This document shows, in pieces, positions 2,875 through 34,503 of a DNA stretch of 64,000 nucleotides. Position numbers and translations under genes: made by a program. The first letter of the stretch is position 1, and each line of letters opens with the position of its first letter. The stretch is from Bacteroides eggerthii. GTDB lineage: Bacteria; Bacteroidota; Bacteroidia; Bacteroidales; Bacteroidaceae. The DNA is taken from NCBI RefSeq assembly GCF_025146565.1, contig NZ_CP102258.1, positions 4,142,510 to 4,206,509 of the forward strand. Direction: 5' to 3'. The notes below the pieces were generated by a model, which was given only the letters and a program-made list of their open reading frames with translations, did no database searches and had not been told where the DNA came from.

Positions 2875-2981
2875 CAAACATACTGCAAATGCAAAAAAAA
2901 GTGTAAAAGTATTGTTTTTATTCATCACACTTTTACACTTTTCAAATGCTATTTTTGTATAGAAAAGGACATTTTTGTATA
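2875..2981 (-). promoter_or_regulatory. Promoter of susC-1 with HTCS-type direct repeat
   Basis: In gene orientation a TATGTTTG box (2882-2875) matches the Bacteroides -7 consensus TAnnTTTG, predicting transcription from about 2868 and a leader of about 40 nt. Upstream is a perfect direct repeat TATACAAAAAT (2981-2971 and 2961-2951), period 20 bp; its ACAAAA cores start 96 and 76 bp before the box. The same layout is seen before the lyase-like gene and at both PUL 2 promoters. Binding by the HTCS encoded at 4701-8747 is inference. Confidence 0.6.
2897..2942. repeat. Perfect 14-bp inverted repeat between operator and -7 box
   Basis: AAAAGTGTAAAAGT (2897-2910) is the exact reverse complement of 2929-2942, with an 18-nt loop. 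It lies between the HTCS-type direct repeat and the -7 box of susC-1, overlapping where the -33 region should be. It could be an operator for a second regulator. As DNA upstream of the predicted start it would not be transcribed from that promoter, so a terminator role is less likely. Confidence 0.6.
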
Positions 2982-3094
2982 AAAAAACGGCCTACGAACA
3001 TGTATAAAGCCGATTCTAAATATCAAGCGACCAGCGCCAGAGTTACCCATTTTTTGTTAATAAAACAAATTTAACGACTAAGCCTACCCCTGTT

Positions 3095-3553
3095 TTATTT
3101 CAAAAAATCAGCTCTCATAGGAGCAAAACAATCTATAAGTACACCAGGTTCCAAACAAACACAGCTATGCAAAATATCAGGCTCAATATAAATGCCGTCA
3201 CCAGCTTTCACTATCTTCTTCTCATTTCCTACCGTAAATTCGAATTTTCCACTTGCCACATAAGTTGTTTGTGTATGATAATGAGTATGAGGAGTTCCTA
3301 TAGCTCCTTTTTCAAACTTCACTTTCACCAACATCACTTGTCCGTCGTATCCCATAATCTGACGAGTAACACCCGTACCTGCCGGTTCCCATGCCTTTTC
3401 TCCACTAATAAAAGTTTCACTGCGCGTTTTTCTTACCGGTTCACAGGCTGTCTTGCCGTTCCCTTCTTGTGCAGCATATATTCCAGGGAACATAAATAAA
3501 GAAAAAACAATTAAACACACATACATTTTCCAATCTTTTGCTTTCATAATCAA
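3095..3553 (-). CDS. Secreted KdgF-like cupin (unsaturated uronate processing)
   Basis: Single-domain cupin of 152 residues with a signal peptide (about residues 1-28), so probably periplasmic. Metal-ligand candidates are H89, H91, H93, Q95 and H129; the HTHYHTQ arrangement with Gln in place of the usual cupin Glu, and the C-terminal FAPMRADFL, resemble KdgF proteins. KdgF converts 4,5-unsaturated uronates released by polysaccharide lyases and unsaturated glucuronyl hydrolases to the linear keto form in pectin and alginate breakdown. It is the last gene of a leftward group (lyase-like, HTCS, epimerase, cupin), 26 bp after the epimerase. The neighbouring lyase-like protein fits this role. KdgF is normally cytoplasmic, so export is unusual. 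A general cupin with another substrate cannot be excluded. Confidence 0.75.
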   Translation of the reverse strand: MIMKAKDWKMYVCLIVFSLFMFPGIYAAQEGNGKTACEPVRKTRSETFISGEKAWEPAGTGVTRQIMGYDGQVMLVKVKFEKGAIGTPHTHYHTQTTYVASGKFEFTVGNEKKIVKAGDGIYIEPDILHSCVCLEPGVLIDCFAPMRADFLK

Positions 3554-3579
3554 GTCTTTAGTTTGATAATTATTTAAGT

Positions 3580-4695
3580 TTATAATGTTTCAAATTTATA
3601 TATAGTCGTTTGACGATAAGTTTCTCCCGGCAGCAACACAGTAGTAGGGAATTGGGCATGATGAGGGGAATCTGGGAAATGTTGCATTTCGAGACAAAAT
3701 CCAAAATATTTTCTATAACACAAACTGTCAGCAGCTTTCAAATAACTCAAATCAGAAGCAGGAGTATAAAACTGCATTCCCGGTTCTGTGGTATATGCTT
3801 TCAATACTCGACCAGAAACCGGATCAACCACTTTGGCAGCAAGCGCTAAAGTATCCAATGCTTTGTTGAGTTTATAATTGATGTCATATCCTTTTCCTAG
3901 CTGTTCAACATGGTGTTTTATAGTTCGCAGAGTACTAAAATCGTATTCTGTTCCTGCTACCGGCATAAGTTCACCTGTTGGCACTCCCGTAGAATCTACC
4001 GGTGTGATAGAATCTCCCATAATCATATAACAATGATTTAAGACCGACTCTTTACATCCGGTCAAATTAAAATAGCTGTGATTAGTCAGATTTATTACAG
4101 TAGGTTTGTCTGTCGATGCAATATAGTCCAAAATTACCTCATTGTCATTAGTGAATTTATAGGCTAATGACAAGTTGAGATTGCCGGGAAACCCGCCTTC
4201 CATATCGGGACTGAGATACTTAAAAACAACCACCGCGGTATCTTCCGCTATATAGCATGTATCTGTTTCAAAAACTTGCAGATTAAATCCTTTTATACCC
4301 CCATGAATGGAATGTCCCTTATTATTTCTATCTAAATAGTAAATTTTATCATCCAGCCTGAACTCCGCATTTTTAATTCTGTTGGCAAAACGTCCTACCG
4401 TAGCACCAAGTTTAGGTTGCCTGCCCCAATAATAGCGCAAACTGTCGAGCCCCAAAACGACCGGTTCAAACACCCCGTTTCTATCCGGTGCAGAAACATA
4501 CGCTAAAGAAGCTGCATAATTTGTCACTTTAATAGTCATTCCATTCTTATTCACTATTTTAATCAGTTCTACGGGCTTACCCTCATATCGCAAACTATCC
4601 TCCTTTGTTATGGAGAATCCGCACATACTTGTTTGTCCCCACAAAGCGAGTGAAATCCAAACCTGCATTATAAACAAAACAATCCGCTTATCCAT
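3580..4695 (-). CDS. Secreted aldose 1-epimerase (GalM family)
   Basis: Mutarotase of 371 residues interconverting alpha and beta anomers of free sugars. GalM features seen: GRFANRI near residue 100, SIHGG near 130, the NHSYFNL segment holding a catalytic His near 205, and FCLEMQHFPDSPHH near 335, which holds the general-base Glu. A hydrophobic leader (about residues 1-25) points to the periplasm, as for other PUL-encoded epimerases. It starts 5 bp after the HTCS stop and ends 26 bp before the cupin, so it is probably co-transcribed with them. Its likely job is to equilibrate sugars released by the PUL enzymes before uptake; the specific sugar is unknown. Confidence 0.9.
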   Translation of the reverse strand: MDKRIVLFIMQVWISLALWGQTSMCGFSITKEDSLRYEGKPVELIKIVNKNGMTIKVTNYAASLAYVSAPDRNGVFEPVVLGLDSLRYYWGRQPKLGATVGRFANRIKNAEFRLDDKIYYLDRNNKGHSIHGGIKGFNLQVFETDTCYIAEDTAVVVFKYLSPDMEGGFPGNLNLSLAYKFTNDNEVILDYIASTDKPTVINLTNHSYFNLTGCKESVLNHCYMIMGDSITPVDSTGVPTGELMPVAGTEYDFSTLRTIKHHVEQLGKGYDINYKLNKALDTLALAAKVVDPVSGRVLKAYTTEPGMQFYTPASDLSYLKAADSLCYRKYFGFCLEMQHFPDSPHHAQFPTTVLLPGETYRQTTIYKFETL

Positions 4696-4700
4696 GACAG

Positions 4701-7700
4701 TTATGCATTATTCTTTCCATATTCCGTAGGCAGGCATCCCATATACTTCTTAAAACGCGCGGCAAAATAAGAAGGAGTATTATATCCCACCATAAAACTA
4801 ATTTCCGAAACAGAATATCTGCCTTCTTTCAGCAACTGGCATGCACGATTAAACCTGATTTTATGAATAAAGTCTATCGCCGACTTACCGGTAATCGCTT
4901 TCAACTTCAAATGGAGATTAGAACGGCTCATATTCATTTCCCTGGCAAATTGTTCCGTTGAAAACTCTACATTATCCATGTTTTTCTCAATCACTGATAT
5001 GGCTCTTCTCAACAGTTCCTCGTCCATTGTATTATTTGCCAATTTCTCCGGTTCTACTTCGGTAGTATTAGAATAGCGTTCAAAAACACGATAACGCGTA
5101 CGTAACACATTCTGAATCTTTGTTTTCAAGATCGGCATAGAGAAAGGCTTAGGAATATAGTCATCTGCTCCAACTTGAAGCCCTTCCAACTGATATTTTG
5201 TATCAGCCTTTGCCGACAGCATATATACAGGAATATGGCAAGTTCGTATATTTTGCTTAATCGCTTTACACAATTTGACTCCATCCATTACGGGCATCAT
5301 AACATCAGTAATGACTAAATCAACCTCTTGGCCTTTCAATATATCCAAGGCTTTCTGCCCATTGTCTGCTTCCAATAAATTAAAGTCGCTTGACAAACCA
5401 CTCACCAAATATTGCCGAAGTTCCTGGTTATCATCCACTACTAAAATCTTTCCCCGTTTTTCTTTTTCTCCGTCTGCCAACGCGCTTGTTTCCAGCAGTT
5501 CTTCATCATCAATATAAACATCATGTGCATTTGTATAATATGCACGCTGCTCTTTGGCCCCCTTTTCTTGCGCAAGCAGTTCCTCAGAAGTATACATAGA
5601 CTTATCCTGCGGTATATAAATGGAAAACGTAGAGCCTTCGCCCACTTTGCTTTCCAGAGTGATATGCCCATGATGCAGTTCTACCAGACGTTGAACCAGC
5701 GACAAGCCTATACCGCTTCCTTCATGTCCACTTTCCGCCTGATAAAAACGCTCAAATATTTTTTTCTGCTTTTCCGCCGGAATACCGACACCCGTATCAA
5801 TCACTTGCAAAACAAGATTATTATCTTCTTTATAAAGACGTACGGTAATGCACTCTCCTTTTTCCGTATATTTAAAAGCGTTTGAAAGCAAATTATTTAC
5901 AATCAAGTCCAAATAGGTCTCATCAAAGAGCAACTCTTCATCTTGCAATTCCGTATATAAATTATAATCTATATCCTTCCTTTTCGACAAGTTCTCATAA
6001 TTCAAGAAACAGTTCAAGACTTTCTTATAAGCATTAGCATATACCGGTCTCAATTCAAAAATACCCAATTCAGCGCGACGATAATCCATTAACTGATTGA
6101 CCAAATGCAACAGGCGGTTCGTATTACGCTGAATATATGACAATTTTTCATGTTCCCAATGGCCTTTAATACGTTCAATAAGTTCCTGCAATGGGGCAAC
6201 AATCAAAGTAAGAGGAGTACGAAGCTCATGAGAGATGTCAATGTAAAAGCGGATTTTCATCTGGCTGATTTCCTCTTGTTTCTCTTTATCCAAGCGCTCC
6301 ATCAGAATCTCAGCCTGCATATTCTTGCGCAACCAAAAGAAGCGCAAGACACCAAACAATAGCCCCGCGCACAAAATAATGAAAATAGAAATAGCCCACC
6401 AAGTACAATACCAAACCGGAAGTACCCGTATATGAAGAATTGCAGGCTCTTCACTCCATTTTCCATCATTATTGGCAGCTTTCAAAAAAAATGTATAATC
6501 TCCTGCCGGTAAATTTGAGTAGGAAACTAAATTTATATTATCTTGGCTGTACCACGAGTCGTTGTATCCTTCCAGCTTATACGCAAAAGTGTTATGCTTT
6601 CCAGCAATATAGTTTGAAACCACGAATGAGATAGAAAAAGAGTTTTGGGAGGAGGTCAATGTTATATGATCCTCGTTTTCTATACATTTTTTCAAAATTC
6701 TTGTTTCATCACCAGGCAATACTTCCTTATTGGATACATATAATTTATTTATAAATGGTCTCGGAGAATACGGATTATCAATAAGCGTTTCAGGCCGAAA
6801 CGAAGTAATTCCATTAATCCCTCCAAAAAGCATGTTCCCATTATTAATTCGACAATAAGAACCGGCATTGAACTGATTACTCTGCAAACCGTCCACGATA
6901 GTAAAATTACGTAATTTTCTGCTTCCGGGGGTCAAACAGCTCAATCCTTGGTTTGTACTTATCCACAAACGCCCGTAACTATCTTCCAGAATGCCATAAA
7001 TAACATTACTGGGCAGTCCATCAACCGTTGTGTACTGCAATAATTCTTTAGCATTCTCCTTCAAGCCAAAAAGTCCATTACGTGTTCCAACCCATATATA
7101 TCCGGATGTAGATTCACAGAAACAGTTTATAAACGATTGCTTCAATATAGGAGCGATATCATATTCCGTATTAATTGTCAAAGAAGTGCCTGTTTGATTA
7201 TAAATAGTAAGTCCCATTTCCCCTCCTGCCCAAATACGTTTCTTAGAATCCCGGAACAATACACTGTTGGATTCTTGCAAACGCTTTCCTTTGCTATCTT
7301 TATCAACCGTCTGAAAATGGTTACCAGCTATATCATAATGAATTAGAGTACCCAATGATGCAATCCAAAGCCCTCCATGCCCATCCGATAAAATAGAATA
7401 AATATTATTACTAGGCAAATCACTGTTTTGAGTATTGAAAAAACGTTGGTTTCCTGTCCTACGATTCAGTACTATCATTCCACCCGCATGAATTCCAACA
7501 TATATATTATCATGCAGTTCATCAACATACACCGCCTTTATATCTTTAAAAGATACCTCTTTTGACAAGTCGGAATTCTGCAAATAGTATTTGTATGTTT
7601 TTGAAGCGCTGTCGTAAAAATTCAGGCCACCTCCATTAGTGCCGATCCACAGATTCTTTGCATTATCCTCCACTATACAGCTGACTACATTATCACTGAT

Positions 7701-8747
7701 GGAATTGGCAAATGGAACATGCTTAATATGCTGAAAACGATTGCACAAAGGATGATAATAGTTCAATCCTCCCCAATAAGTGCCCAACCACATTCCTCCT
7801 TGCGAATCCATAAAAATACTACGTACAGAATTCTGTGACAGACTCCCCTCCTGTATTGCAGAATTTCTCACCGACAAAAAGCGATCTTTACCTCCTTCGT
7901 AAATATTCAAGCCCCCATAAGTGCCAACCCACAATCTGTTTTCCTGATCTACGGCCAAAGAACGCACATAGTTTGAATTCAGACCGGAATATCCGTCCTC
8001 ATGTCTATAATTCTTCAGTTCCTTGGATTTAGTATCATACATGTATAGCCCTTCACCTTCCGTCGCTATCCATATCCGGGTGAACATCTGACAAAAGACA
8101 GAATGTATACGGGTTGCTTTCGGCATATCCACCAACTTTTCCAAAGTTCCATTTGCCAAAGAATAGACATAAAGTCCTTTCTCCACTCCTATGTAAATCT
8201 TATCACTTTGACGAACCATAGCAGTAGGTCTCAACAAATGTAGCGGATGAGGTAACGTATCATTCAGAATACGTTCCTTCCCTATATCAAAAAGCAATAC
8301 TCCACTGGTTGTACCCAACATCAGATAGTCCTTATTCATCGGTGCTATGCATGTGACAGTAGCTTTATAACCATTTTCTTTATAAAAATAATTCGAGAAA
8401 GTATCTTGGTCCCGATTATAAAGAGAAAAACCCTCTCTGGTACCAATCCATACTCTACCGGAATCATCAACTGTTACACAACGACTAATGTCGCAAGCTA
8501 TGCTTTGAGGATTCGCATATTGATGACGATAGACTGTAAAATTGTAGCCATCGTATTTATTGACTCCATCGTAAGTCGCAAACCACAAATTTCCTTCTTT
8601 GTCCTGATTAATACCAAATATCGTGCAATGTGACAGGCCTTCTTCCAATCCGATATGCGTAAAACGTATACCGTCCAGATTATTGGCATACCCGATACAT
8701 GTAAATAATACTCCAAAGAATGTTAACAAAGGCCGAAACGTTTTCAT
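4701..8747 (-). CDS. Hybrid two-component regulator (HTCS): periplasmic propeller sensor, kinase, receiver, AraC DNA-binding domain
   Basis: One-protein signalling system of 1348 residues. Order: signal peptide; two seven-bladed Reg_prop propellers (about 25-690) with repeated W(I/V)GT..GL blades; Y_Y_Y domain (about 695-770); transmembrane helix (about 776-800); HisKA with DISHELRTPLTLI (His near 838); HATPase with NLLSNAFKYTEKG and GVGIPAEKQ; receiver with DLVITDVMMPVMDG (Asp near 1147); AraC-type HTH (about 1245-1348). HTCS proteins bind a breakdown product of the target glycan in the periplasm and activate the PUL. It lies between the lyase-like gene and the epimerase on the same strand. 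Candidate operators are the ACAAAA direct repeats before susC-1 and the lyase-like gene. Confidence 0.96.
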   Translation of the reverse strand: MKTFRPLLTFFGVLFTCIGYANNLDGIRFTHIGLEEGLSHCTIFGINQDKEGNLWFATYDGVNKYDGYNFTVYRHQYANPQSIACDISRCVTVDDSGRVWIGTREGFSLYNRDQDTFSNYFYKENGYKATVTCIAPMNKDYLMLGTTSGVLLFDIGKERILNDTLPHPLHLLRPTAMVRQSDKIYIGVEKGLYVYSLANGTLEKLVDMPKATRIHSVFCQMFTRIWIATEGEGLYMYDTKSKELKNYRHEDGYSGLNSNYVRSLAVDQENRLWVGTYGGLNIYEGGKDRFLSVRNSAIQEGSLSQNSVRSIFMDSQGGMWLGTYWGGLNYYHPLCNRFQHIKHVPFANSISDNVVSCIVEDNAKNLWIGTNGGGLNFYDSASKTYKYYLQNSDLSKEVSFKDIKAVYVDELHDNIYVGIHAGGMIVLNRRTGNQRFFNTQNSDLPSNNIYSILSDGHGGLWIASLGTLIHYDIAGNHFQTVDKDSKGKRLQESNSVLFRDSKKRIWAGGEMGLTIYNQTGTSLTINTEYDIAPILKQSFINCFCESTSGYIWVGTRNGLFGLKENAKELLQYTTVDGLPSNVIYGILEDSYGRLWISTNQGLSCLTPGSRKLRNFTIVDGLQSNQFNAGSYCRINNGNMLFGGINGITSFRPETLIDNPYSPRPFINKLYVSNKEVLPGDETRILKKCIENEDHITLTSSQNSFSISFVVSNYIAGKHNTFAYKLEGYNDSWYSQDNINLVSYSNLPAGDYTFFLKAANNDGKWSEEPAILHIRVLPVWYCTWWAISIFIILCAGLLFGVLRFFWLRKNMQAEILMERLDKEKQEEISQMKIRFYIDISHELRTPLTLIVAPLQELIERIKGHWEHEKLSYIQRNTNRLLHLVNQLMDYRRAELGIFELRPVYANAYKKVLNCFLNYENLSKRKDIDYNLYTELQDEELLFDETYLDLIVNNLLSNAFKYTEKGECITVRLYKEDNNLVLQVIDTGVGIPAEKQKKIFERFYQAESGHEGSGIGLSLVQRLVELHHGHITLESKVGEGSTFSIYIPQDKSMYTSEELLAQEKGAKEQRAYYTNAHDVYIDDEELLETSALADGEKEKRGKILVVDDNQELRQYLVSGLSSDFNLLEADNGQKALDILKGQEVDLVITDVMMPVMDGVKLCKAIKQNIRTCHIPVYMLSAKADTKYQLEGLQVGADDYIPKPFSMPILKTKIQNVLRTRYRVFERYSNTTEVEPEKLANNTMDEELLRRAISVIEKNMDNVEFSTEQFAREMNMSRSNLHLKLKAITGKSAIDFIHKIRFNRACQLLKEGRYSVSEISFMVGYNTPSYFAARFKKYMGCLPTEYGKNNA

Positions 8748-8797
8748 ATAATTAGATATATAATATTATAACATAAAAACAAAGAAACAAAAATATA

Positions 8798-10699
8798 TTA
8801 ATTATATGTGATTTCAATTTGAATTTTCTTATTCTCCCCCTCAGGAAATATCTGTAAAGGAACAAAAGAGAAACCGGGTACAGGATTAAATATTCGACCA
8901 TCTTCATCTGTCGGAGCTACCTTCAACATGCCATTCACGCAGATTATTTCCAATACGCCCTCTTTTTTCTGAAGAAGCATGCCTTTCGAGGTAATATCCA
9001 CTACCTCTGAAGGTGCGGCAATGACCGGCAAAACAAGGCAGGCTGTCAAAGGACAATAATCCACTACTATCGACATGCCCTGTTTGGAGTACACATAATC
9101 CAAAGTCACAGGAAACGCCCCCTGAACCGGTGTCTGCTGGTCAGCGTCCACCAAATGAGTATTGATATGGAAACGATGCTTATCTTTCTCTTGAGTATAA
9201 ACAATATCCGTATCCAAGTCATCCAAATTACTATAAATAGTTCCATACTGTACCATTTCAACCCGCGGTGTTCCACTCATTATATACTTTCTGCTATTAC
9301 TCTGCATATTAGGCGCTTCTATCAGAGCATACCGGTTTGTTGTAGCGGCAAAGACCGGACCGGCCTGTTCGTGCCACAACAGAGAAACAGCTCCTCCCAT
9401 CGGGTGAGTGCCCTTTACCTTATATTCAGCATCAAAACCGGTACACGTGGAACGCCATGATCCTTCTGCAACCAGCCAAGTACGAATATCTTGGAAATAC
9501 TTCACTCCATAAGCATTATCGCGTGGCAGTGACTTGTATTGTGGTGCTTTGACAGGTGGAAGCTCAAGAAAAGCGGTCAGAGCCTTGGCATGACCAAAAG
9601 TATGATGAATACAAGCCGGAATTCCCGAAGCCTGATAATCACGTCCGGCATGAAGCAATCCGTTATTTGTCGATTTCTTCAGTAATCGTATATTGCGCCG
9701 AATAGCTTCCAGATACTCCGGGTGTTGTTCTGCCATAGCATAATAACCACCCATGAAACCATCGCTCGTACGTCCGCCCCAATATGTCCACTTAAAACTG
9801 CGTGTCCCCCAACTATTATCCCACGCACCATCAGGCAACATAAATTCCAAGTGAGTATTCATGGAACGTTCCACAATAGAGAGCAGTTCCCGGTCGTTCA
9901 CCATAAGCGCATAATAGGCCAGATTAGGCAAAGACTCTTCTATATTATAGCCTAAATCCACAGGAAGACAGCCATTCTTAGTAGGTGTCCATATCTTAGG
10001 TCCTTCACCGTATAAAAAAAAGTCGTTTACTGTAAAAAATTTCTTCAAATCCGAAGCCACAATCCGGGCTTCTTCCTTGAAATCCGGACGGTTAAACATC
10101 TCGCCAAGAGCCTGCAAGGCATATGTCACCGAGGCTGAATAGTTCACATTATTCAAGCGCTTCATGTTCCCCTGCATACGGCGACTGTACATCTGAGGAT
10201 TCTTCATCATAAATTCGCCAGCTTCCAACAATTGTTTTTTCCAATGATTACAGGTAGAATCATCCAGCAAATGCCCATGATAATGCACTGCCTCATATAA
10301 AGCGATAGCCGCAAATACAGTCGTTCCACTCCAGTCTGACACATGTACATCGTTCATCCATGAACCATCCGGACGATGCACATTCTCCATCCATTTCATA
10401 AGCTTCTTGGCGGCAAGCAAATATTTATCATCGCCGGTTTTGTGCGCTAAATACATCAGAGGGAGAACCGTATCTCCTATCCGCCCATGAATACGAGCGC
10501 AGGCAGGACAAAGAAAACCTCCGTCAAGCGCAGGATGCAATCCTTCACATTGGTAAGTCAGCAGAGTATCTACCCACTCCATCAACAGTTTTTCCGCATC
10601 ATTACGCAGGGATTTATCAGAATAAACAGGATTTCCGGCACATACTCGTCCCGAGAAAGAGAGCGCAAACACAAACGCCACAAAAAAAATGTTTCTCAT
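8798..10699 (-). CDS. Secreted alpha-toroid protein, candidate polysaccharide lyase of unassigned family
   Basis: Secreted protein of 633 residues. Residues about 20-400 are helix-rich with repeated W/Y-G-containing segments (CPACARIHGRIGD, DGSWMNDVHVSDWSG, DGAWDNSWGTRSFKW, ACIHHTFGHAKAL) of the kind seen in (alpha/alpha) toroids; the rest looks beta-rich, like the sandwich domains that follow the toroid in many lyases. Conserved-looking His, Tyr and Asn (NYSASVTYALQALG; ACIHHTFGH) could be catalytic, but I cannot assign a CAZy family. The sulfatase, KdgF-like cupin and SusC context suggests cleavage of a sulfated uronate glycan. The start at 10699 is preferred over an ATG at 10723, because the -7 box at 10735-10728 would put transcription start at or after 10723, and MRNIFFVAFVFALSFSG is a standard leader. 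Confidence 0.6.
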   Translation of the reverse strand: MRNIFFVAFVFALSFSGRVCAGNPVYSDKSLRNDAEKLLMEWVDTLLTYQCEGLHPALDGGFLCPACARIHGRIGDTVLPLMYLAHKTGDDKYLLAAKKLMKWMENVHRPDGSWMNDVHVSDWSGTTVFAAIALYEAVHYHGHLLDDSTCNHWKKQLLEAGEFMMKNPQMYSRRMQGNMKRLNNVNYSASVTYALQALGEMFNRPDFKEEARIVASDLKKFFTVNDFFLYGEGPKIWTPTKNGCLPVDLGYNIEESLPNLAYYALMVNDRELLSIVERSMNTHLEFMLPDGAWDNSWGTRSFKWTYWGGRTSDGFMGGYYAMAEQHPEYLEAIRRNIRLLKKSTNNGLLHAGRDYQASGIPACIHHTFGHAKALTAFLELPPVKAPQYKSLPRDNAYGVKYFQDIRTWLVAEGSWRSTCTGFDAEYKVKGTHPMGGAVSLLWHEQAGPVFAATTNRYALIEAPNMQSNSRKYIMSGTPRVEMVQYGTIYSNLDDLDTDIVYTQEKDKHRFHINTHLVDADQQTPVQGAFPVTLDYVYSKQGMSIVVDYCPLTACLVLPVIAAPSEVVDITSKGMLLQKKEGVLEIICVNGMLKVAPTDEDGRIFNPVPGFSFVPLQIFPEGENKKIQIEITYN

Positions 10700-10727
10700 A
10701 TTATTTAGTATTATCAGATTCATTTTT

Positions 10728-10911
10728 CAAAAATAGAACATTCCGGCAACATATTGCCGTTATTTTCTCCAATACACCACAACATACGTTTACCGATTCC
10801 ATAATTTTGTTGAATCTTCATCAATTTTGTTGAATATTTGTATGCCAAAACAATATTGGCAGTTTTTTAAACACATCAGGCATGCTTATCAGAGCAAATG
10901 CCCTATCTTAG
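10728..10911. promoter_or_regulatory. Divergent promoter region of lyase-like gene and sulfatase with shared direct repeat
   Basis: Leftward promoter: TATTTTTG at 10735-10728. Rightward promoter: TATCTTAG at 10904-10911, one mismatch to TAnnTTTG. Between them is a direct repeat AATTTTGTTGAAT (10803-10815 and 10823-10835), period 20 bp. Read leftward its ACAAAA cores start 95 and 75 bp before the lyase -7 box, as at susC-1. The repeat is nearly equidistant from both -7 boxes. A 6-bp palindrome with a 4-base centre, CGGCAACATATTGCCG (10744-10759), overlaps the leftward -33 region. Confidence 0.55.
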
Positions 10912-10939
10912 CAACCGTTACTAAAAAACTAAATATAAC

Positions 10940-12907
10940 ATGAAAAACTTACCTTTACTCATGTGTACTGCTTTTTGCGGGCTGAATGCCGTCCAGGCTG
11001 ATGCTGCAGACAACAAAAAGGATGAAAGGCCCAATATTCTTTGGCTTACTTTTGAAGATACCAGCGCTTACGAATTCGGTTGTTATGGTAATAAAGGCGT
11101 ACACACCCCAAATGCGGATAGTCTAGCCGTTCATGGCATACAATTTATGAACGCATGGTCAGTGGCTCCGCAAAGTTCTGCTGCACGCTCGTCACTTATC
11201 ACCGGCTGCTACTCCTCAAGCTACGGAATGGATGTCCATCCGGTTCCATACGACACTCCGGAAAACATATTCTTCCCTCAATGGCTACGGGAAGCCGGAT
11301 ATTATTGCACTAACAACAGCAAAACGCATTACAACTCCACCACAGACAATAAAAGTTGTTGGGACGAATGTACCCCTAAAGCATCCTACAACAGTACTAA
11401 ACGCGGTAAAGACCAACCATTCTTCGCTGTGTATAACACAGTGACCTCACACATGGGACGTATCCGTACTTTCCACACTGATGGACGAAGAGATTATACA
11501 ACGGAAGGTATTTATCCTGAGCTTCTCACCCTGCCTTCCTACGTACCCGACTTGCCCGAAGTGCGTTCCGACTATGCCGGCCACCTGGAAGCCGTACAGG
11601 ATGTAGACACTTGGTTGGGATTTTTTCTGAAAGATCTGAAAGAAAAGGGATTGGACGACAATACGATTATCTTCTTCTTCAGCGATCATGGCGGTTGCGT
11701 CCCGCGCGGCAAAGGATATTTATATGAAAGCGGTTTGAGAGTCCCCATGATAGCCTACTTTCCACCCAAATGGCAACATCTGGCTGGAAAGAAAGCATCC
11801 GGTAAAGAATATTCTTTGGTGAACTTCACCGATTTAGGCCCTACCGTACTTAGTCTTGCGGGAGTAAAACCGCCTAAGCACATGCAAGGCAAAGCTTTAT
11901 ACGGGAAATATGCATCCGATGAAAAACGGGAAATTCAGTTTGCTCTGGCTGCCAACCAACTACATCATTTTATGCCTGTACGTGCCGCCACCGACGGACG
12001 TTTCAAATACATCCGTAGCTATATCCCCTATCGTCAATTTGCCCTGCGCAATTATTATCAATGGGGTATGCCGTCCAATAAGGCATGGGACACGTTGGTA
12101 TTAGGCGGTCACAATACCAATCCCGACTGGGCACAAACTTTCAACGCCCACCCGGCCGAAATGTTGTTCGACCTTGAAAAAGATCCAGGCGAACTACATA
12201 ATTTATCCGACTCTCCCGAATATGCGGAAGTCCTGGCAAAAATGCGTAAAGCCCTTTCTGACCATATCCGTTCTACAAAAGATTTAGGATTTTTCATGCC
12301 CACTTCCCGCGTAAATACAACATTATACGACAAAGTGCGCAAAGAAAAATATCCCTTGAATGAACTATATAACCTTGTAGAGTTAGCCGGTACAGCTAAA
12401 GCAAGCGATGCCTCTGTATTCGAGAAAGCATTATCCAGCCAATACCCGGAAATGCGTTATTGGGCATCCGTAGGTTTAGCGCAACTTGGAATCAAAGGAG
12501 AGTTACAAGTTTGTCCTCCAACCTTGCTTACCCTGATGAACGATGCCGACCCATATATAGCCTGCGAAGCAGCCTATGCTGCAGCCTATTTGGGAGAAAC
12601 ATCCAAAGGCATCGAGCGTCTAAATCATCCGGCAAAAGAAGCTGACAGAAAAGTCGGTTACTCTTTACTGGAATGTTTGTCCTTGGACAAAACTATGCAA
12701 CCTGCCATCCGCACTCATCTGGCAGACCTGAAAGAGAAGGCCGAAATTCTTCCTCGCAAAGCAAATGAAGATGCCGGGCTAATGGCACGCGGCATTTTGG
12801 TCAACCTCGGTGAGATGAATATAAAGGACCTGCATGGCCCCGAATCCTATAAATTAGGATTGAAACTGAATCATGGACGCAGACCCATGGTTCCGCTTCC
12901 AAACTGA
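10940..12907 (+). CDS. Sulfatase, Ser-type formylglycine enzyme with C-terminal helical-repeat extension
   Basis: Periplasmic sulfatase of 655 residues hydrolysing sulfate esters from a glycan. Residues 30-42 (RPNILWLTFEDTS) carry metal ligands. The active-site motif is S79-S80-A81-A82-R83 followed by SSLITG, the (C/S)-x-(P/A)-x-R pattern with Ser, so it needs an anaerobic radical SAM maturase (anSME) rather than the aerobic enzyme. FFFSDHGG near residue 250 supplies further metal ligands. After about residue 480 a helical, HEAT-like extension (YWASVGLAQLG, ACEAAYAAAYLG) is present, found in some carbohydrate sulfatases. A cleavable leader is present. It diverges from the lyase-like gene across 240 bp and converges on the MATE gene. 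The sulfated position it attacks cannot be read from sequence. Confidence 0.93.
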   Translation: MKNLPLLMCTAFCGLNAVQADAADNKKDERPNILWLTFEDTSAYEFGCYGNKGVHTPNADSLAVHGIQFMNAWSVAPQSSAARSSLITGCYSSSYGMDVHPVPYDTPENIFFPQWLREAGYYCTNNSKTHYNSTTDNKSCWDECTPKASYNSTKRGKDQPFFAVYNTVTSHMGRIRTFHTDGRRDYTTEGIYPELLTLPSYVPDLPEVRSDYAGHLEAVQDVDTWLGFFLKDLKEKGLDDNTIIFFFSDHGGCVPRGKGYLYESGLRVPMIAYFPPKWQHLAGKKASGKEYSLVNFTDLGPTVLSLAGVKPPKHMQGKALYGKYASDEKREIQFALAANQLHHFMPVRAATDGRFKYIRSYIPYRQFALRNYYQWGMPSNKAWDTLVLGGHNTNPDWAQTFNAHPAEMLFDLEKDPGELHNLSDSPEYAEVLAKMRKALSDHIRSTKDLGFFMPTSRVNTTLYDKVRKEKYPLNELYNLVELAGTAKASDASVFEKALSSQYPEMRYWASVGLAQLGIKGELQVCPPTLLTLMNDADPYIACEAAYAAAYLGETSKGIERLNHPAKEADRKVGYSLLECLSLDKTMQPAIRTHLADLKEKAEILPRKANEDAGLMARGILVNLGEMNIKDLHGPESYKLGLKLNHGRRPMVPLPN

Positions 12908-12927
12908 TAAGCTGGGCAACAACGTTG

Positions 12928-23608: not shown

Positions 23609-23629
23609 TGCCCTATACAACAACAAATT

Positions 23630-24480: not shown

Positions 24481-24779
24481 TTTCAGTAATGCCATTGCGA
24501 TCCGAGCAAACCTATAGTATACAATGATATCAAACGCTCTCTACGAAAGACTTTTATAATGCTCCCTTCGGAGAAGGATCTATTATAATTTTTAAAAGAG
24601 GCATCTACGCATAAAGGCAACACCTCCTTTATAGGTCCTGCATTTCTAAATTACCTGCTTCCTTTCAGGTTCTATATATAAATAATGAATATTGGCACAC
24701 TAAGTCAGATGTTGCTTATTCAGCCCCCCATAAATAAACATTTATATAAACATAGATCAGTCACTAATATAATTATATT
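24481..24779. other. Gene-free interval before the GH115 gene end
   Basis: No open frame with coding character on either strand. It contains small stems (CTCC-CTTC-GGAG near 24560; ACCTG/CAGGT near 24653-24675) but no recognised RNA family. It may be untranslated or decayed sequence. Confidence 0.4.
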
Positions 24780-24815
24780 AAAAAATAGGATTCAAGTATA
24801 AAACTCGAATCCTAT
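24780..24815 (-). terminator. Intrinsic terminator after the GH115 gene
   Basis: Leftward, just after the GH115 stop: ATAGGATTC (24785-24793) pairs with GAATCCTAT (24807-24815), followed on the minus strand by a T-rich tract. Confidence 0.65.
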
Positions 24816-24821
24816 AATTTT

Positions 24822-27851: not shown

Positions 27852-27914
27852 AAAATTATTTTTTATTTATTGGTAAATTAATACAAACTCAACAAATTGC
27901 AACTATCTATAAAT

Positions 27915-28339
27915 TTAGTAATTAGCAAAGTGAGATTTCAGTTTGTTCTTCTCAGCGCATATCTCATCGCCGTATGCCGTACACAGGGACTTGAGAAACA
28001 CGACAAAGTTGGTAAAAGGATATACCTTTACTCCCACCTTGTGAAACTTAGCGAGCTGTTTGTCTATGTATTTCGCCCGCTGCTCTATCCACTGCCTTTC
28101 CTGCCTATCTTTTATAAGTTCCTTTTTACATTGTCGTATGTAATAGTGAAATTGACGTGCCAGTGTGTCACCGCTCCGCTGAATTTCTAGCTTTCTAAAA
28201 ATTCCGGATCATTATATTTTGTAACATACGGTTTCTCGCCAGAAGTGTTATGTACCATGTCAAGTACATATTTCATTTTCTCTTGATCATTGGTTATTAT
28301 TAATATAACCATAGGAATAACTGACAATATTATTTTCAT
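27915..28339 (-). pseudogene. Frameshifted and truncated N-terminal part of a secreted glycan-active protein
   Basis: A leftward frame of 50 codons opens with ATG at 28339, 24 bp after the GH29 stop, with a hydrophobic leader then MKYVLDMVHNTSGEKPYVTKYND, and stops at 28187. A second frame (28208-27915), shifted relative to the first and lacking an ATG, continues with coding-like sequence (RQWIEQRAKYIDKQLAKF, VGVKVYPFTNFVVF, YGDEICAE) and stops at 27915. The two pieces read like consecutive parts of one N-terminal region of a larger enzyme. I infer a PUL gene reduced to its first 130 or so codons, with at least one frameshift and loss of the 3' part. Family is not identified. An opposite-strand frame here looks like a shadow. 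Confidence 0.5.
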
Positions 28340-28363
28340 ATTATCGTTTGTATAAAAGATGAG

Positions 28364-29980
28364 CTACTTTGATATTTTCAAAACAGGAGCAATGGCATTT
28401 GTGACTATTGGCAACTGTATTTCAAGCCCATTGTCTGTCTGCACGACTTTCAGACAACCATAACCGAGCAGTTCCACTGTGGTGATGTTTTTCTTGAAAT
28501 GGGGATTACCTTTGGCGAGAGACCTCACGACTACTTTGCCGTCTTCAGGCCATCCGAGAGGGGTGACGTAGAGATATTTCTTCGTCTGGTTGAAACGGAT
28601 GTCAGCTGATGTCATATTGCTGTACATACCGTCGTTGAATCCCTGAGCCTTAAGCTTGATGTCAGACTCGGCAACTGGACCTTCGCCGAACCTCACCCAC
28701 GGACGGGTATTGAAGATGCTTTCCTTATTTACTGTCATCCAAGCCTCTATGCCATCAAGTATAGCAGCCTCTTTCTCGTCATACGTACCATCGGCACGCA
28801 GAGGAATGCTAAGTAAAAGGTTGCCGTTTTTACTAACTATATCAATGAGTTGTTTTATAACCTCCGTTGCACTCTTGTAGCTACCACGCTCATAGATGCT
28901 GGTATTATAGTGCCAGTTTCCAAGGCAGTTGCATGTCTGCCAAGGCTCTTCGACAATCTCATTGGGCGCACCACGCTCCACATCCCATGTGAGGGCTTCG
29001 CGCTGTTCGTCGTTGAGCATCTTACCAAACATCACAGCACGCGGATTCTTATTGTAGAAATGCGATGCAATCTTCAATCCGCAGTCACTGATGTCATGAA
29101 AGGGCGCAACGGTGACGTCAAAGTAGATGAGGTCGGGATTGTAGCGGTTGATAGCGTCGAGAGTACGGTCATAAAAGTTGGTGACATATTCAAGTGTAGG
29201 TAGACAGGCTCCGCCACTCCATGCCCACTGTACGTGCACACGATTGTTTGCCCAAGACTTCTCACTCATGGGATGGTTTTGCGCATAGAGATCCTGCGGA
29301 TCGTAACCTTCCCACCATTTGCCCTTTCCATCGGCTTTGGTCAGTTTGCCGTCGTAATGTATACCCGCTTTAGGTCCGTTTATGTCGTAACGCTGTGCAG
29401 GCTCATACCACAACCATGCGTGGTCAGCGTGGAAACTAATGCCAAGAGGCAAACCATACTTCTTTGACGCTTTTGCCCATCCGGCAATCAAATCCTTCTT
29501 CGGCCCCATATTCACAGAATTCCATGGCTGATATTTCGAATCCCAAAGGTCGAAGTTGTCGTGGTGGTTACCGAGGACAAAGATATATTGTGCTCCGAGG
29601 CGTTTGTATCTTTCCACGAGTTTGTCAGGATCCCATTTTTCTGCTTTGAAGAGTGGAAGAATATCCTTGAATCCCACCTCTGATGGATGGCCATAATGTT
29701 CTTTATGATAATTGTAAGCGTATGTGCCTTCTTTATACATATTGCGTGCCATCCAGTCGCCCGAACCTTCCACGCACTGCGGTCCCCAATGAGCCCAGAT
29801 GCCGAATTTGGCATCGCGGAACCATTCCGGAGTCTTGTGTTTTCTGAGTGATTCCCACTGCGGCTTATACTGTCCCTCAACCATCTGCTCTTTCTCATTA
29901 GTTACAGGTACCTTGTATTCCTGTGCCCATGCTCCTGCTGCGCAAACAGCAAAAAACAAAACAATCAAATAAGTCTTCAT
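28364..29980 (-). CDS. GH29 alpha-L-fucosidase, secreted
   Basis: Retaining exo-fucosidase of 538 residues with a signal peptide (about 1-19). GH29 landmarks: WFRDAKFGIWAHWGPQCVEG near residue 55, the double-His GNHHDNFDLWDSKYQPWN near 137, SFHADHAWLW near 183, and NPDLIYFD near 287 whose Asp is the expected nucleophile. A C-terminal beta domain follows. The acid/base Glu is variable in this family and cannot be fixed by eye. It is first in the leftward operon GH29 - pseudogene - GH115, about 118 nt after a predicted start within an HTCS-type promoter. It probably removes fucose from the glycan imported by SusC/SusD of PUL 2. Confidence 0.92.
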   Translation of the reverse strand: MKTYLIVLFFAVCAAGAWAQEYKVPVTNEKEQMVEGQYKPQWESLRKHKTPEWFRDAKFGIWAHWGPQCVEGSGDWMARNMYKEGTYAYNYHKEHYGHPSEVGFKDILPLFKAEKWDPDKLVERYKRLGAQYIFVLGNHHDNFDLWDSKYQPWNSVNMGPKKDLIAGWAKASKKYGLPLGISFHADHAWLWYEPAQRYDINGPKAGIHYDGKLTKADGKGKWWEGYDPQDLYAQNHPMSEKSWANNRVHVQWAWSGGACLPTLEYVTNFYDRTLDAINRYNPDLIYFDVTVAPFHDISDCGLKIASHFYNKNPRAVMFGKMLNDEQREALTWDVERGAPNEIVEEPWQTCNCLGNWHYNTSIYERGSYKSATEVIKQLIDIVSKNGNLLLSIPLRADGTYDEKEAAILDGIEAWMTVNKESIFNTRPWVRFGEGPVAESDIKLKAQGFNDGMYSNMTSADIRFNQTKKYLYVTPLGWPEDGKVVVRSLAKGNPHFKKNITTVELLGYGCLKVVQTDNGLEIQLPIVTNAIAPVLKISK

Positions 29981-30104
29981 TTTTTTATATATAAAGATTC
30001 TTTTTACGATCCATTTTCTTTGTATCCAAACCAGTCGAAGTCGGCATAATTTAAATGTTTTATTGGGATTTATTCTCGGTCATTTTATATTGTCTTGCTG
30101 CTAA

Positions 30105-30213
30105 CAAAGATAGAATACGTAAAATTAGATTAGATTAACAGATATACTTAATTCATCATTTTTTATAACCACGCCTATATTTATGTACTATATTCATTCA
30201 TTTTTGTCACATT
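30105..30213 (-). promoter_or_regulatory. HTCS-type promoter element A (before GH29 operon)
   Basis: 109-bp element, leftward. It ends in a TATCTTTG -7 box (30112-30105). ACAAAAAT and ACATAAAT repeats start at 30207 and 30186 (95 and 74 bp before the box, period 21). Hand alignment with the copy at 34395-34503 gives 92 of 109 identities without gaps, including a 32-base identical block (30182-30213) and conserved TTATAAAA, GAATTA and ATATCTGTTAATC. The predicted leader to the GH29 start is about 118 nt. The remaining sequence from 29981 to 30321 shows no gene. Confidence 0.75.
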
Positions 30214-30321
30214 ACTCAATACCAACAGCAAACTATCCCCTTTTTTTTAAGATAGGAAGAGTAGTTTGTGTTCTAAAAGAAAAATGAGTAATATTAGAAA
30301 GTGTGTGTGTTTTAAATAATG

Positions 30322-33300
30322 TTACCTGTTTCTATTTGATTGTGCATATTCCATAGGAGAAAGGCCATACACTTTCTTAAAGGCGCTTGAAAAATGTGTC
30401 TGACTGGTAAATCCTACCGCATAAGCTATTTGGGTTATTGAAAGATCTTTATTTTCTAATAACACGGTAGCTTGTTGAAGGCGCAGATTGCGAATAAAAT
30501 CGCTAGGAGCGGTTCCTGTCATTTCCTTCATACGTCGGTGCAAATGAGTACGACTGATCCCGATTTCTTGCGTAAGCATCTCTACATTAAGATTAGGGTT
30601 GCTCAAGTTCTCATTTATAATGTTCATAATACGTTCCATCAATGCCTCATCGTTTCCTTGCAATTCGACCGGGGCTATTTTCCCTTCCTGAGTCTGACTA
30701 CCCGAATACTTTCCTTTTAGCCGCACACGATTAGCTATCAGATTGGTTATAAGCACCATCAATTCTTCCGTATTAAAAGGCTTGCATAAATACCCGTCCG
30801 CTCCTTGTACCAAGCCTTCAATCCGGTTGGAAAATTCAACTTGAGAAGTCAGCAAAATAATGGGGATATGACTAGTATTAGCATTCTTTTTCAATTCTTT
30901 CAGCAGTTGGATGCCATCCATATTGGGCATGATAACATCTGAAATGATTATGTCCGGTTGTTGAGTAATCGCTTTTTTCCGTCCTTCTACTCCATCTATA
31001 GCCACATCTACATGATAATATGCAGCCAGGTTGTCTTTTAAAAAGCTCCGTAGTTCATCATCATCATCAATTACAAGAACACTATAATTAGTCTTTCTAT
31101 ATTTTACTTTTTCCCGGGATGGATGGTAAGGAATATATTGGTCTGCCATTACGCCATGTGGAACCAAACCGGTTTCCACCTTTACCATTTCTTCCTTTTT
31201 CAAATGTTTGCACCCCAAAGGGAGGTGTACCACAAAACGGCAACCTTGAGTATCCGTCCTATTTTCAGCAAAAATGATACCATGATGCAATTTCACAAGC
31301 AGTTGGCATAGGTTTAATCCGATGCCGAAACCCAAGGAGTGCATAGTATGGCTACCATCGCCTTGATAAAAACGATTGAAGATTTTTTTCAGTTCTTTTT
31401 CATTCACTCCCTTGCCCGTATCTGAGATAGAAATCTCCATATACTTTTGCAAAAGGCCGGAGCTTTTCGGATTACTGCCGGTTTTTACTTCTATGCAGAT
31501 GACACCATTTTCAGGCGTATATTTAAAAGCATTTGAAAGCAGGTTGACCAGCACCTTATCAAAATTATTCGGATCAATCCACACCGTTGGAAGTTTTTCC
31601 GGAAATTTTGTTTCCAAACTGATTTTTTTCAGGCGTGCCTGCTCTGCAAATACAAGAAGCAGTTCATTGACAAACGACCGGATATCAACCTCCTCACAAA
31701 GAATAGGCATCTGGCCTTTATCAATCTTCCGTACATCAAGCAACTGATTAATAAGGTTTAAAATACGGCCGGTATTATACTTGATTGTTAACAGCATTTT
31801 ATTAATATCCGGCTCACACTGCATTCTCTGCAATTTCTCCAGCGGACCGAGGATAAGAGTAAGCGGTGAACGTATCTCGTGTGCAATATTGATAAAAAAC
31901 TGCAACTTCATTTCACTAATTTCCTCCTGTTTTTTCCGTCTGTAAACTGTATATAACAAATAGCCGGCACAGATAACCAACAAAATATAAACAATTTTGG
32001 CACCAGTACTCAGATACCAAGGCGGGATAACATGAATCCGTACGGATCTTATCGGTGAATGAAATCCATTTTCGCAAGCACGTATTTGGAGGGTATAATT
32101 CCCAGGAGCCAAATGGTGGTATTGTATCCGGTTTTCGCCAGGCTGTGTCTTATTCCAGTTTTCATTGAATTCCTCAAGCCGATATTCATAAAGGACATTT
32201 CCAGCATCACGAAAGTCCATTGTTGAGACCATGAATACGAATGTATTATCCATATAAGAAAGATTGAAACAATCAGCATGGACCAATTCTGTATCAACGA
32301 CCCGTTTATTTCCCGAGCATGTCTCCATAGTCACTTTCTGATCCCGAATATACATATCGGTAATGAAAGGTGGAGTGTCCGGTTTTATTAACTGAATATC
32401 ATCAGGATTAAAGCCGGTAATTCCCCTATTTCCTCCGAAATAAATTTTTCCTTTTTTACTTTGAGTATAACGTCCTTCTAAATATACCTTTTCTTGCAGT
32501 CCATTCCCTGTATAATAGTTAACAACTTGTTTTCCGTCTACAAGGATATGGCAAATTCCCTGTATGGTGCTACACCATAAATTACCATGTTTATCCTGCA
32601 CTAGTCCACAGATAACATTATCTGGGAGTCCCTGTTCAGTAGTGATAACCGAATATTGATTGTTTTGGGGATTATAATGAACTAGCCCATTCTTAGTACC
32701 CATCCAAATCGTATGGTCCTTTCCTTCAATAATTGTATAGAAAGAACTGGACTTTATTTCTGGTTCAAAAGGTAAGTCTAGAAATCTTTCGTTCCGGGTA
32801 TCATAACAGCTTATATTTCCAAAATGTCCGAACCAGATTCTATCTTCAGAATCGCATAAAATAGAAATGATCCAATAATTTGTAATATTATTTTCTCCTT
32901 TAATAGGATTCTTCCTTGAAAGTAGTTGATACTTTCCCGTAGGCAAATGATATTGCAAAATACCCTCTCCTAAAATAGCTGCATACAAATTTTTATGCTT
33001 ATCTTCTGTAATACATCTTATGCTGAAATCCCCCTGTAATGGATATTTCAATTCCAACTTTCCTTTTTTTCGATTAAACGAATACAGTCCTTTTCCATTG
33101 ATTCCCACCCAAAACACACCGTCACTATCTTCAAACATTGAAAAGACAACCCCATCCGTATAAATATGGCGGGAGATATTACCATTACAATCCAGTTGAT
33201 AAATACCATTATCTTCAACAGAACACCACATAGTATCTGTTTTATCGCAATAGAGCGCATTGAGCCATCCCGGCATATCGGAAAGCATGATGGGCTGGTT

Positions 33301-34296
33301 CCAAAAAGAAAAAAGCAATGGTTTATGAGGCAGCATCAGAAAGCCCTGGTATAAACATCCAATCCATAAGTTCTGCTGTTTATCTTCGAAAAGGCTACTA
33401 ACCTTAGCCTGATTGATATTTATAAATGAGCTTTGAATGCCATCTGCATCTGTAATTTTCTTGTCTCCACGCTTTATGCAAGTGATTCCCTGTCCATAAG
33501 TACCCAGCATAATGTCTCCATTAGCAGTGATTACAACAGAATGGAAACGGATATTCTTCTTTTTTCCGGAATAAGGAAACGGCACAAGCTTGTCGTTTTC
33601 TTGATCCCACAAGAAAACAGTTTGTGCGGTAACCATAAAAACCCTCCGGTCATAATCTTCGAGTATATTACGCACAGCCATATTATTTAGCGGATATATT
33701 TTTTCTTCCTGACCGGTGGAATCGATACGGACTATGCCTTGCCGGTCAGTTCCCAGCCAGAGTTGTCGCCGGCTGTCTTCAAAGAGGCAAGTTACAAAAG
33801 GCGGATGAAAAAGTTTACTTTCAGTTATAACAGGATGTGCCACCATTGTTTGAATGTCCACGGAAAAAATGCCCACATCAGATACATTACATAAAATTTC
33901 ACCCGTATTCCGTTGAAAGATACCGGTAATTCGCCCTTTTGCCTTTATAGTATGGAGAGTGACTGTCTGGAAACTGTCTTTTTCCGGAAGGTAACGTTGC
34001 AAGCCGTTGGCTGTGCCTATCCAAAGATTATTTTCATCATCAATATATAAGGAGTGAATTTCATTATCGGCCAATGAAGTGGAATCTTGTTTTGCATGAT
34101 AATAAGACACAAACTGCGAACCGTCAAATCTGCGAAGTCCGTTTCTTGTACCAATCCATAAATAATTGTTTTGATCCTGACATAATACATTTATACATTG
34201 GCTGCCTATTGTTGCTTTATCGTAAAAGATTGCATTTTGTGCAAATACTGATTGTGTAATACAAAGCAATAAAAATATCAGTTGCTTTTTTATCAT
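30322..34296 (-). CDS. Hybrid two-component regulator (HTCS) of PUL 2
   Basis: 1324 residues with the same plan as the PUL 1 regulator. Order: signal peptide (about 1-19); Reg_prop propellers (about 25-670; LWIGTRNGLRRFDG, LWLGTDRQGIVRID); Y_Y_Y domain (about 680-755); transmembrane helix (about 764-784); HisKA with NIAHEIRSPLTLI (His near 805); HATPase with NLLSNAFKYTPENG; receiver with DIIISDVIMPNMDG (Asp near 1119); AraC HTH at the C-terminus (about 1220-1324). It lies between two near-identical promoter elements, A on its downstream side driving GH29 and B on its upstream side driving susC, the arrangement expected of a local activator. It is probably triggered by an oligosaccharide from the same glycan. 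Confidence 0.96.
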   Translation of the reverse strand: MIKKQLIFLLLCITQSVFAQNAIFYDKATIGSQCINVLCQDQNNYLWIGTRNGLRRFDGSQFVSYYHAKQDSTSLADNEIHSLYIDDENNLWIGTANGLQRYLPEKDSFQTVTLHTIKAKGRITGIFQRNTGEILCNVSDVGIFSVDIQTMVAHPVITESKLFHPPFVTCLFEDSRRQLWLGTDRQGIVRIDSTGQEEKIYPLNNMAVRNILEDYDRRVFMVTAQTVFLWDQENDKLVPFPYSGKKKNIRFHSVVITANGDIMLGTYGQGITCIKRGDKKITDADGIQSSFININQAKVSSLFEDKQQNLWIGCLYQGFLMLPHKPLLFSFWNQPIMLSDMPGWLNALYCDKTDTMWCSVEDNGIYQLDCNGNISRHIYTDGVVFSMFEDSDGVFWVGINGKGLYSFNRKKGKLELKYPLQGDFSIRCITEDKHKNLYAAILGEGILQYHLPTGKYQLLSRKNPIKGENNITNYWIISILCDSEDRIWFGHFGNISCYDTRNERFLDLPFEPEIKSSSFYTIIEGKDHTIWMGTKNGLVHYNPQNNQYSVITTEQGLPDNVICGLVQDKHGNLWCSTIQGICHILVDGKQVVNYYTGNGLQEKVYLEGRYTQSKKGKIYFGGNRGITGFNPDDIQLIKPDTPPFITDMYIRDQKVTMETCSGNKRVVDTELVHADCFNLSYMDNTFVFMVSTMDFRDAGNVLYEYRLEEFNENWNKTQPGENRIQYHHLAPGNYTLQIRACENGFHSPIRSVRIHVIPPWYLSTGAKIVYILLVICAGYLLYTVYRRKKQEEISEMKLQFFINIAHEIRSPLTLILGPLEKLQRMQCEPDINKMLLTIKYNTGRILNLINQLLDVRKIDKGQMPILCEEVDIRSFVNELLLVFAEQARLKKISLETKFPEKLPTVWIDPNNFDKVLVNLLSNAFKYTPENGVICIEVKTGSNPKSSGLLQKYMEISISDTGKGVNEKELKKIFNRFYQGDGSHTMHSLGFGIGLNLCQLLVKLHHGIIFAENRTDTQGCRFVVHLPLGCKHLKKEEMVKVETGLVPHGVMADQYIPYHPSREKVKYRKTNYSVLVIDDDDELRSFLKDNLAAYYHVDVAIDGVEGRKKAITQQPDIIISDVIMPNMDGIQLLKELKKNANTSHIPIILLTSQVEFSNRIEGLVQGADGYLCKPFNTEELMVLITNLIANRVRLKGKYSGSQTQEGKIAPVELQGNDEALMERIMNIINENLSNPNLNVEMLTQEIGISRTHLHRRMKEMTGTAPSDFIRNLRLQQATVLLENKDLSITQIAYAVGFTSQTHFSSAFKKVYGLSPMEYAQSNRNR

Positions 34297-34319
34297 AGTT
34301 TATAGATTTTTTCTCACGA

Positions 34320-34327
34320 CAAAGTTA
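34320..34327 (-). promoter_or_regulatory. -7 box of the PUL 2 HTCS gene (TAACTTTG)
   Basis: Exact TAnnTTTG match leftward, 24 bp before the ATG at 34296. No ACAAAA direct repeat sits at the expected distance in this orientation, suggesting constitutive expression of the regulator. Confidence 0.55.
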
Positions 34328-34394
34328 TGTCTTTTAAAAAACAAACTGCCTTCCTACACCTAAAAAAAAGGATAAATTGCTATTTTTTTTGAAT

Positions 34395-34503
34395 AATGTG
34401 ACAAAAATGAATGAATATAGTACATAGATGTATGCATAGTTATAAAAGCTGACGAATTAGACATATCTGTTAATCCATTTTAATTTCACGTTCTCTATCT
34501 TTG
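34395..34503 (+). promoter_or_regulatory. HTCS-type promoter element B (before susC-2)
   Basis: Rightward copy of element A. ACAAAAAT starts at 34401 and ACATAGAT at 34422 (95 and 74 bp before the box), and TATCTTTG lies at 34496-34503. Spacing and conserved blocks match element A exactly. Confidence 0.75.

Follow-up and report, generated by a model that had tools for sequence, protein, structure and literature searches.

Does a single operator serve two PULs that each have a regulator of their own, and how is such an operator placed with respect to the promoter? The question is raised by the final 64 kb of the 4.2 Mb single-contig genome of Bacteroides eggerthii, the whole stretch of DNA analysed here and called the window below. 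It contains two PULs, each with one hybrid two-component regulator (HTCS). Among the regulators of gut Bacteroides, HTCSs form a major class; open-access texts do not work out how they activate promoters. An initial annotation had read both PULs as sharing one operator, an ACAAAA direct repeat about 95 and 75 bp before a TAnnTTTG box, with the HTCSs as its binders. Our comparisons of sequence partly support that interpretation and suggest a larger array, in which four half-sites would stand in fixed register to the box.

The two PULs and their regulators

The genes needed for the argument are as follows.

4701..8747, minus strand: HTCS-1, a hybrid two-component regulator whose sensor is most similar to PDB 4a2l; it probably binds the PUL-1 sites
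8798..10723, minus strand: 641-aa PUL-linked gene, behind the second operator
28364..29980, minus strand: GH29 gene
30322..34296, minus strand: HTCS-2, a hybrid two-component regulator from a second DNA-binding clade; it probably binds the PUL-2 sites
34867..38028, plus strand: susC-2

HTCS-1 and HTCS-2 each combine a sensor propeller, a histidine kinase, a receiver and an AraC-type HTH. The sensor of HTCS-1 aligns with PDB 4a2l at 900 bits; we take this entry to be BT4663, a heparin sensor, and by this similarity the HTCS-1 sensor is of the heparin-sensor type. The closest named match to HTCS-2 comes from B. propionicigenes (80% identical). The DNA-binding domains (DBDs) of the two regulators are 31% identical. 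PDB 12aw_A, a solved structure that covers the receiver and DBD of a hybrid two-component protein, matches HTCS-1 at 199 bits and HTCS-2 at 189 bits and is usable for modelling the array described below.

The 641-aa gene, counted as PUL-linked by its position only, had been labelled lyase-like. Searches of Pfam, NCBIfam and PDB sequences lent this label no support: they returned no match to the protein, with a Pfam set lacking PF25840 and PF25841, the two families carried by its homologues. Among 8000 sequences scored, 2626 were relatives at E <= 0.001, and the names displayed for relatives were hypothetical protein or a signal-domain label.

Four promoters base by base

Slot positions are given in bp before the start of the TAnnTTTG -7 box and are read in gene orientation.

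2966..2978, minus strand: susC-1 slot 1 (-96), ACAAAAATGTCCT
2946..2958, minus strand: susC-1 slot 2 (-76), ACAAAAATAGCAT
2924..2936, minus strand: susC-1 putative slot 3 (-54), GTAAAAGTGTGAT, weak, within a hairpin-forming inverted repeat
2903..2915, minus strand: susC-1 slot 4 (-33), ACAATACTTTTAC
2875..2882, minus strand: -7 box of susC-1, TATGTTTG
10818..10830, minus strand: 641-aa gene slot 1 (-95), ACAAAATTGATGA
10798..10810, minus strand: 641-aa gene slot 2 (-75), ACAAAATTATGGA
10777..10789, minus strand: 641-aa gene slot 3 (-54), ACGTATGTTGTGG, weak
10756..10768, minus strand: 641-aa gene slot 4 (-33), AGAAAATAACGGC, without the C
10728..10735, minus strand: -7 box of the 641-aa gene, TATTTTTG
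30195..30207, minus strand: GH29 slot 1 (-95), ACAAAAATGAATG
30174..30186, minus strand: GH29 slot 2 (-74), ACATAAATATAGG
30153..30165, minus strand: GH29 putative slot 3 (-53), ATAAAAAATGATG, weak
30133..30145, minus strand: GH29 putative slot 4 (-33), ATATCTGTTAATC, weak
30105..30112, minus strand: -7 box of GH29, TATCTTTG
34401..34413, plus strand: susC-2 slot 1 (-95), ACAAAAATGAATG
34422..34434, plus strand: susC-2 slot 2 (-74), ACATAGATGTATG
34443..34455, plus strand: susC-2 putative slot 3 (-53), ATAAAAGCTGACG, weak
34463..34475, plus strand: susC-2 putative slot 4 (-33), ATATCTGTTAATC, weak
34496..34503, plus strand: -7 box of susC-2, TATCTTTG

The placements in the initial annotation proved exact to the base (96/76 at susC-1, 95/75 at the 641-aa gene, 95/74 at both GH29 and susC-2), and the repeat period of 20 or 21 bp, two helical turns, was seen at all four promoters. 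The positions of the ACAAAA repeat thus hold throughout, but its letters do not, the second core being ACATAA or ACATAG in both PUL-2 promoters. The full ACA is absent from slot 4 of the 641-aa gene and of both PUL-2 promoters. Since the susC-2 and GH29 promoters are identical at 86 of 103 positions, we treat them as one duplicated case.

Two further features lie among these sites. On the minus strand at susC-1 (2890-2950), an inverted repeat lying between the box and slot 2 can fold into an A+T-rich hairpin of 17 pairs (z -5.35), which is followed by a run of T; the arms are kept at loci L191, L196 and L222. The hairpin may end transcripts arriving from the HTCS-1 side, or it may be a further operator; a scan for terminators in the susC-1 promoter called none under its criteria. 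Upstream of the sulfatase gene (10940, plus strand), a TAATTTTG box on the plus strand at 10802-10809 faces that gene and overlaps slot 2 of the divergent 641-aa-gene operator, and both directions may therefore compete.

A preferred distance to the box

How special is this arrangement? The pattern proposed in the initial annotation matched the B. eggerthii genome five times, against none for the backwards pattern; four matches lie in the window and the fifth, outside it, precedes a GH88-type gene, so that all five stand before PUL or PUL-linked genes. In 149 of the 158 genomes of the genus, the pattern gave 68 matches and its backwards version 25 (hand tally). Because this pattern fixes the distance to the box, the distance was set free in a second search of the 149 genomes, in which ACAAAA repeats of period 20-21 were followed by TAnnTTTG over 31 gap values. 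It returned 86 rows, and the backwards control 34 (hand tally). Twenty rows were left out as copies of one conserved 93-bp sequence, which falls within a 210-aa open frame in the 6 loci where the script located it; the 66 rows kept include orthologues. Forty of these 66 place the repeat 95-97 bp before TAnnTTTG, with the nearer core at 75-77 for period 20 and at 74-76 for period 21, and the other 26 are scattered elsewhere. A search with the period set free gave 133 rows against 62 for the backwards control (hand tally); 37 had period 20-21 (hand count), and ten rows came from a single, unrelated family of repeats in G142.

The genes behind the on-peak rows are mostly those of PULs. Judged by the longest open reading frame starting within 900 bp, with calls that rest on Pfam and BLAST and with three rows assigned through an orthologue rather than a scan of their own, 31 of the 40 were PUL-type (SusC, GH88, heparinase II/III, PL8, sulfatase, GH95, glycan-binding proteins and relatives of the 641-aa protein), 4 ambiguous (esterase, sugar transporter) and 5 not PUL-type; the boxes were mostly strict. 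Off the peak, a PUL-type frame followed in 6 of the 20 rows examined out of 26. The susC-1 and 641-aa-gene operators are kept before orthologues in other genomes, and the susC-2 operator is kept in B. propionicigenes, where blocks near -95, -74, -55 and -34 can be read by eye.

Further elements at -33 and -54

Forty on-peak promoters, overlapping with the 40 rows above and not identical to them, were aligned on the box and reduced to 29 groups at 62% identity, which are not fully independent, several being formed by promoters of 641-aa-gene orthologues. An ACA emerged at -33, outside the search pattern (A in 27/29, C in 20/29, A in 25/29), together with R at -25 and A at -24, as expected from the half-site consensus ACAAAAnTRAwAG; a C at -53 stood out less strongly. 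Scored in leave-one-out fashion, the profile of the upstream half-site reached z 10.6 at -33, 4.0 at -54 and 3.0 at -35. The array appears to consist of four half-sites in steps of about 21 bp, at -95, -74, -54 and -33.

A search that used the upstream half-site only, over 538 kb of HTCS-1-clade neighbourhoods, arrived at the same register. It yielded 53 pairs. A box followed 34 of them at 95-97 bp and 4 overlapping sub-pairs at 75-76 bp, and 15 lacked a strict box within 60-150 bp. In the control, 259 kb around the genome's other HTCSs, there were 7 half-site pairs and no box. Eight boxless pairs were viewed by hand; a one-mismatch box lies at 96-97 in four (L274, L272, L268, L277), none was seen in L273 and L036, L037 has one elsewhere, and the eighth is a sub-pair. 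ACA stood at -33 in 9 of 11 promoters unrelated to the training set. Five of the 11 had been seen previously; the six previously unseen ones had ACA in five cases and ACG in one. Three of the loci with a one-mismatch box (L272, L268, L274) carry four, or almost four, ACAAAA-like copies before 868-aa genes, and the final copy precedes that box by 33 bp; the L272 product scanned as DUF4962/heparinase-like. Of 472 boxes in HTCS-1-clade loci, 41 had a four-slot score above 10, a count that includes training promoters, orthologues and one promoter counted twice, as against 0 of 260 boxes beside the genome's other HTCSs and 0 of 2360 shuffles.

Outside the genus, a search of 399 genomes of the family, each at least 80% complete, gave no comparable peak among the matches listed. 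The first motif, that of PUL-1, had at least 11 on-peak rows there, with ACA at -33 in 3 of the 11 listed and in 3 of 4 in genus g12.

Regulator clades and the generality of the lattice

Which regulators accompany these sites? Among 20 neighbourhoods fetched, 10 contained an HTCS, and all 10 belonged to the HTCS-1 DNA-binding clade, whose DBDs are 65-95% identical to that of HTCS-1. Three further HTCSs of the B. eggerthii genome fall in this clade (two at L036, one at L040), and the 12 others recovered, like HTCS-2, have DBDs at most 41% identical to that of HTCS-1. From co-occurrence with HTCS clades it is likely that the PUL-1 sites go with HTCS-1 and the PUL-2 sites with HTCS-2.

A promoter of the HTCS-2 clade in the same genome (L051) appears to carry TGTAAC-like copies at 21-bp steps, the last at -33; these positions were recorded before 80 further HTCS neighbourhoods from five genomes were fetched. 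The 80 neighbourhoods and 14 own loci, minus three HTCS-1-clade loci, provided 308 promoter-like and 1330 coding boxes. Repeats of 21 or 22 bp preceded 47 of the 308, a figure in which divergent promoters can count one repeat twice, against 14 of the 1330. Averaged over these other clades, the lag-21 signal peaks near -61/-40 and not at -95/-74, so a strong upstream pair is a feature of some clades only. In held-out loci, 30 of 54 TGTAAC-like hexamers fell on 12 of 135 positions, around -100, -79, -58 and -37, the one-base windows having been chosen after the histogram; the coding control gave 14 of 155 on the same positions. These slots are the ones seen with the HTCS-1 clade: AC then falls at about -96, -75, -54 and -33. 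A hexamer on this lattice was present in 6 of 6 held-out HTCS-2-like loci versus 5 of 68 others.

The letters of the last slot change with the regulator clade. Of 13 HTCS-2-clade promoters picked on slots 1-3 alone, 11 carry G at -36 and 11 carry C at -32 in slot 4, and the best TGTAAC match there is at -37; G at -36 occurs in only 3 of the 29 HTCS-1-type groups. The flanking bases, initially noted to differ between the PULs, do differ by regulator. Because the regulators of PUL-1 and PUL-2 belong to different DNA-binding clades, what had been called one operator is better termed one spacing lattice with two motifs.

Variants of the arrangement were also encountered. The SusC promoter at L047 (box at 11829, plus strand) has four TGTAAC-like copies at -92, -70, -59 and -37, with the upstream pair off the lattice and 33 bp between the pairs. 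On the minus strands of L311 and L053 (reverse-strand box positions 10844 and 11632), four copies spaced by 21 bp carry other motifs, TCTGAT-like and TCYACA-like, beside HTCSs of other clades, in the same or a shifted register.

Discussion

We propose the following model as the probable explanation of these arrays. Each would be an HTCS operator of four same-direction half-sites about 21 bp apart, at about -95, -74, -54 and -33 and in fixed register to TAnnTTTG, occupied by two dimers with a class II-like contact and paired as PUL-1 with HTCS-1 and PUL-2 with HTCS-2. The comparisons above show the spacing, the register, the last slot, the change of slot 4 with clade and the co-occurrence with HTCS clades. 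The stronger upstream pair would recruit one phosphorylated HTCS dimer, and the weaker downstream pair would take a second dimer cooperatively. The last half-site, at the position expected for the -33 sigma element, could then let the regulator contact RNA polymerase in the manner of AraC-family class II activators. Slot 4 extends from -33 to about -21 of the box start, and TTG is depleted there (1 of 29 array promoters versus 20 of 76 other boxes); as array promoters are nearly devoid of TTG at -33, the bound regulator may stand in for the sigma contact.

Would a plain two-site operator suffice, with other factors binding at -54 and -33 or with these elements being remnants? In the published model a dimer occupies two sites spaced by about 21 bp (PMC3878776, PMC6874557, as far as their open text goes), slot 3 is weak across the set at the z of 4.0 given above, and many promoters have only two strong-looking copies. 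Slot 4, however, bears the half-site letters of its own clade, and several promoters have three or four strong copies on the lattice, which makes this reading unlikely. The -33 element might instead be a core-promoter signal for sigma or RNA polymerase, unrelated to the HTCS. It keeps a stricter distance to the box than the upstream sites do, and other promoters also show a slight excess of AC at -34/-33 (10.5% and 7.8%, against 2.4-6.8% nearby). We set this explanation aside as improbable because ACA at -33 is rare in other promoters (2.7% of 295); the letters flanking -33 also vary with the regulator clade, so that slot 4 looks like a regulator site and not a general promoter element. That the layout was copied by shared promoter ancestry and not selected, as the likeness of the susC-2 and GH29 promoters and the orthology of some of the 29 groups might suggest, was already unlikely for PUL-1 and is overall very hard to credit, since groups below 62% identity have the same columns in common and two clades with different letters have the same spacing.

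Does the four-slot model reach beyond these two clades? We speculate that a single four-slot lattice of 21-bp steps, fixed relative to the -7 box, is common to HTCS promoters in general, with clades differing in letters and strong slots, that the membrane-anchored HTCSs act as dimers of dimers, and that slot strength sets how easily a PUL is switched on. Because the averaged lag-21 signal peaks near -61/-40 and the proposal goes beyond the two clades described, we advance it tentatively, with slightly more doubt than confidence. If true, the promoter of an unstudied PUL could reveal both its regulator and its responsiveness. For the present clades, a fixed four-slot register would provide a concrete model of activation, make operators and likely start sites callable from sequence, help to match regulators with targets and offer a design rule for glycan-inducible promoters.

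Comparison with known systems

Operators of Bacteroides HTCSs, including HTCS_Hep (BT4663) and HTCS_Hya (BT3334), were predicted by Ravcheev et al. (2013, PMC3878776), whose text describes tandem sites on average 21 bp apart and bound by a dimer. The present sites share with them the direct repeats about 21 bp apart, the location before HTCS-linked PUL operons and the clade-dependent motif, and they display the two-site repeat, the proximity to PUL genes and HTCSs and the conservation before orthologues typical of such operators. In its accessible text that model has two sites, and promoter register and -54/-33 sites are absent from it. The idea of an HTCS-type operator is therefore retained as far as tandem sites two helical turns apart and co-occurrence with HTCSs are concerned, whereas the array appears to have four half-sites and not two, the last of them, at -33, directly adjoining the core promoter. 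Neither four slots nor a fixed promoter register was found in searches of the open literature. For BT4663, binding of a phosphorylated receiver-DBD fragment to the regulator's susC promoter has been reported (PMC11253607). The main Bacteroides promoter, that of sigma-ABfr, is described with -7 and -33 elements in PMC7366714; the array promoters share its TAnnTTTG -7 box but are nearly without TTG in the -33 region.

Soluble AraC-family activators offer a further comparison. A four-site arrangement occurs at melAB. MelR and RhaS are described as binding the upstream half-site more strongly than the downstream one, and the same has been suggested for MtlR (PMC4514859). As in the arrays described here, their direct-repeat half-sites lie upstream of the -35 region with the upstream one stronger; MelR, RhaS and MtlR, however, are soluble and act at sigma-70-type promoters, whereas the HTCSs are membrane-bound and would act at a promoter of the TAnnTTTG type.
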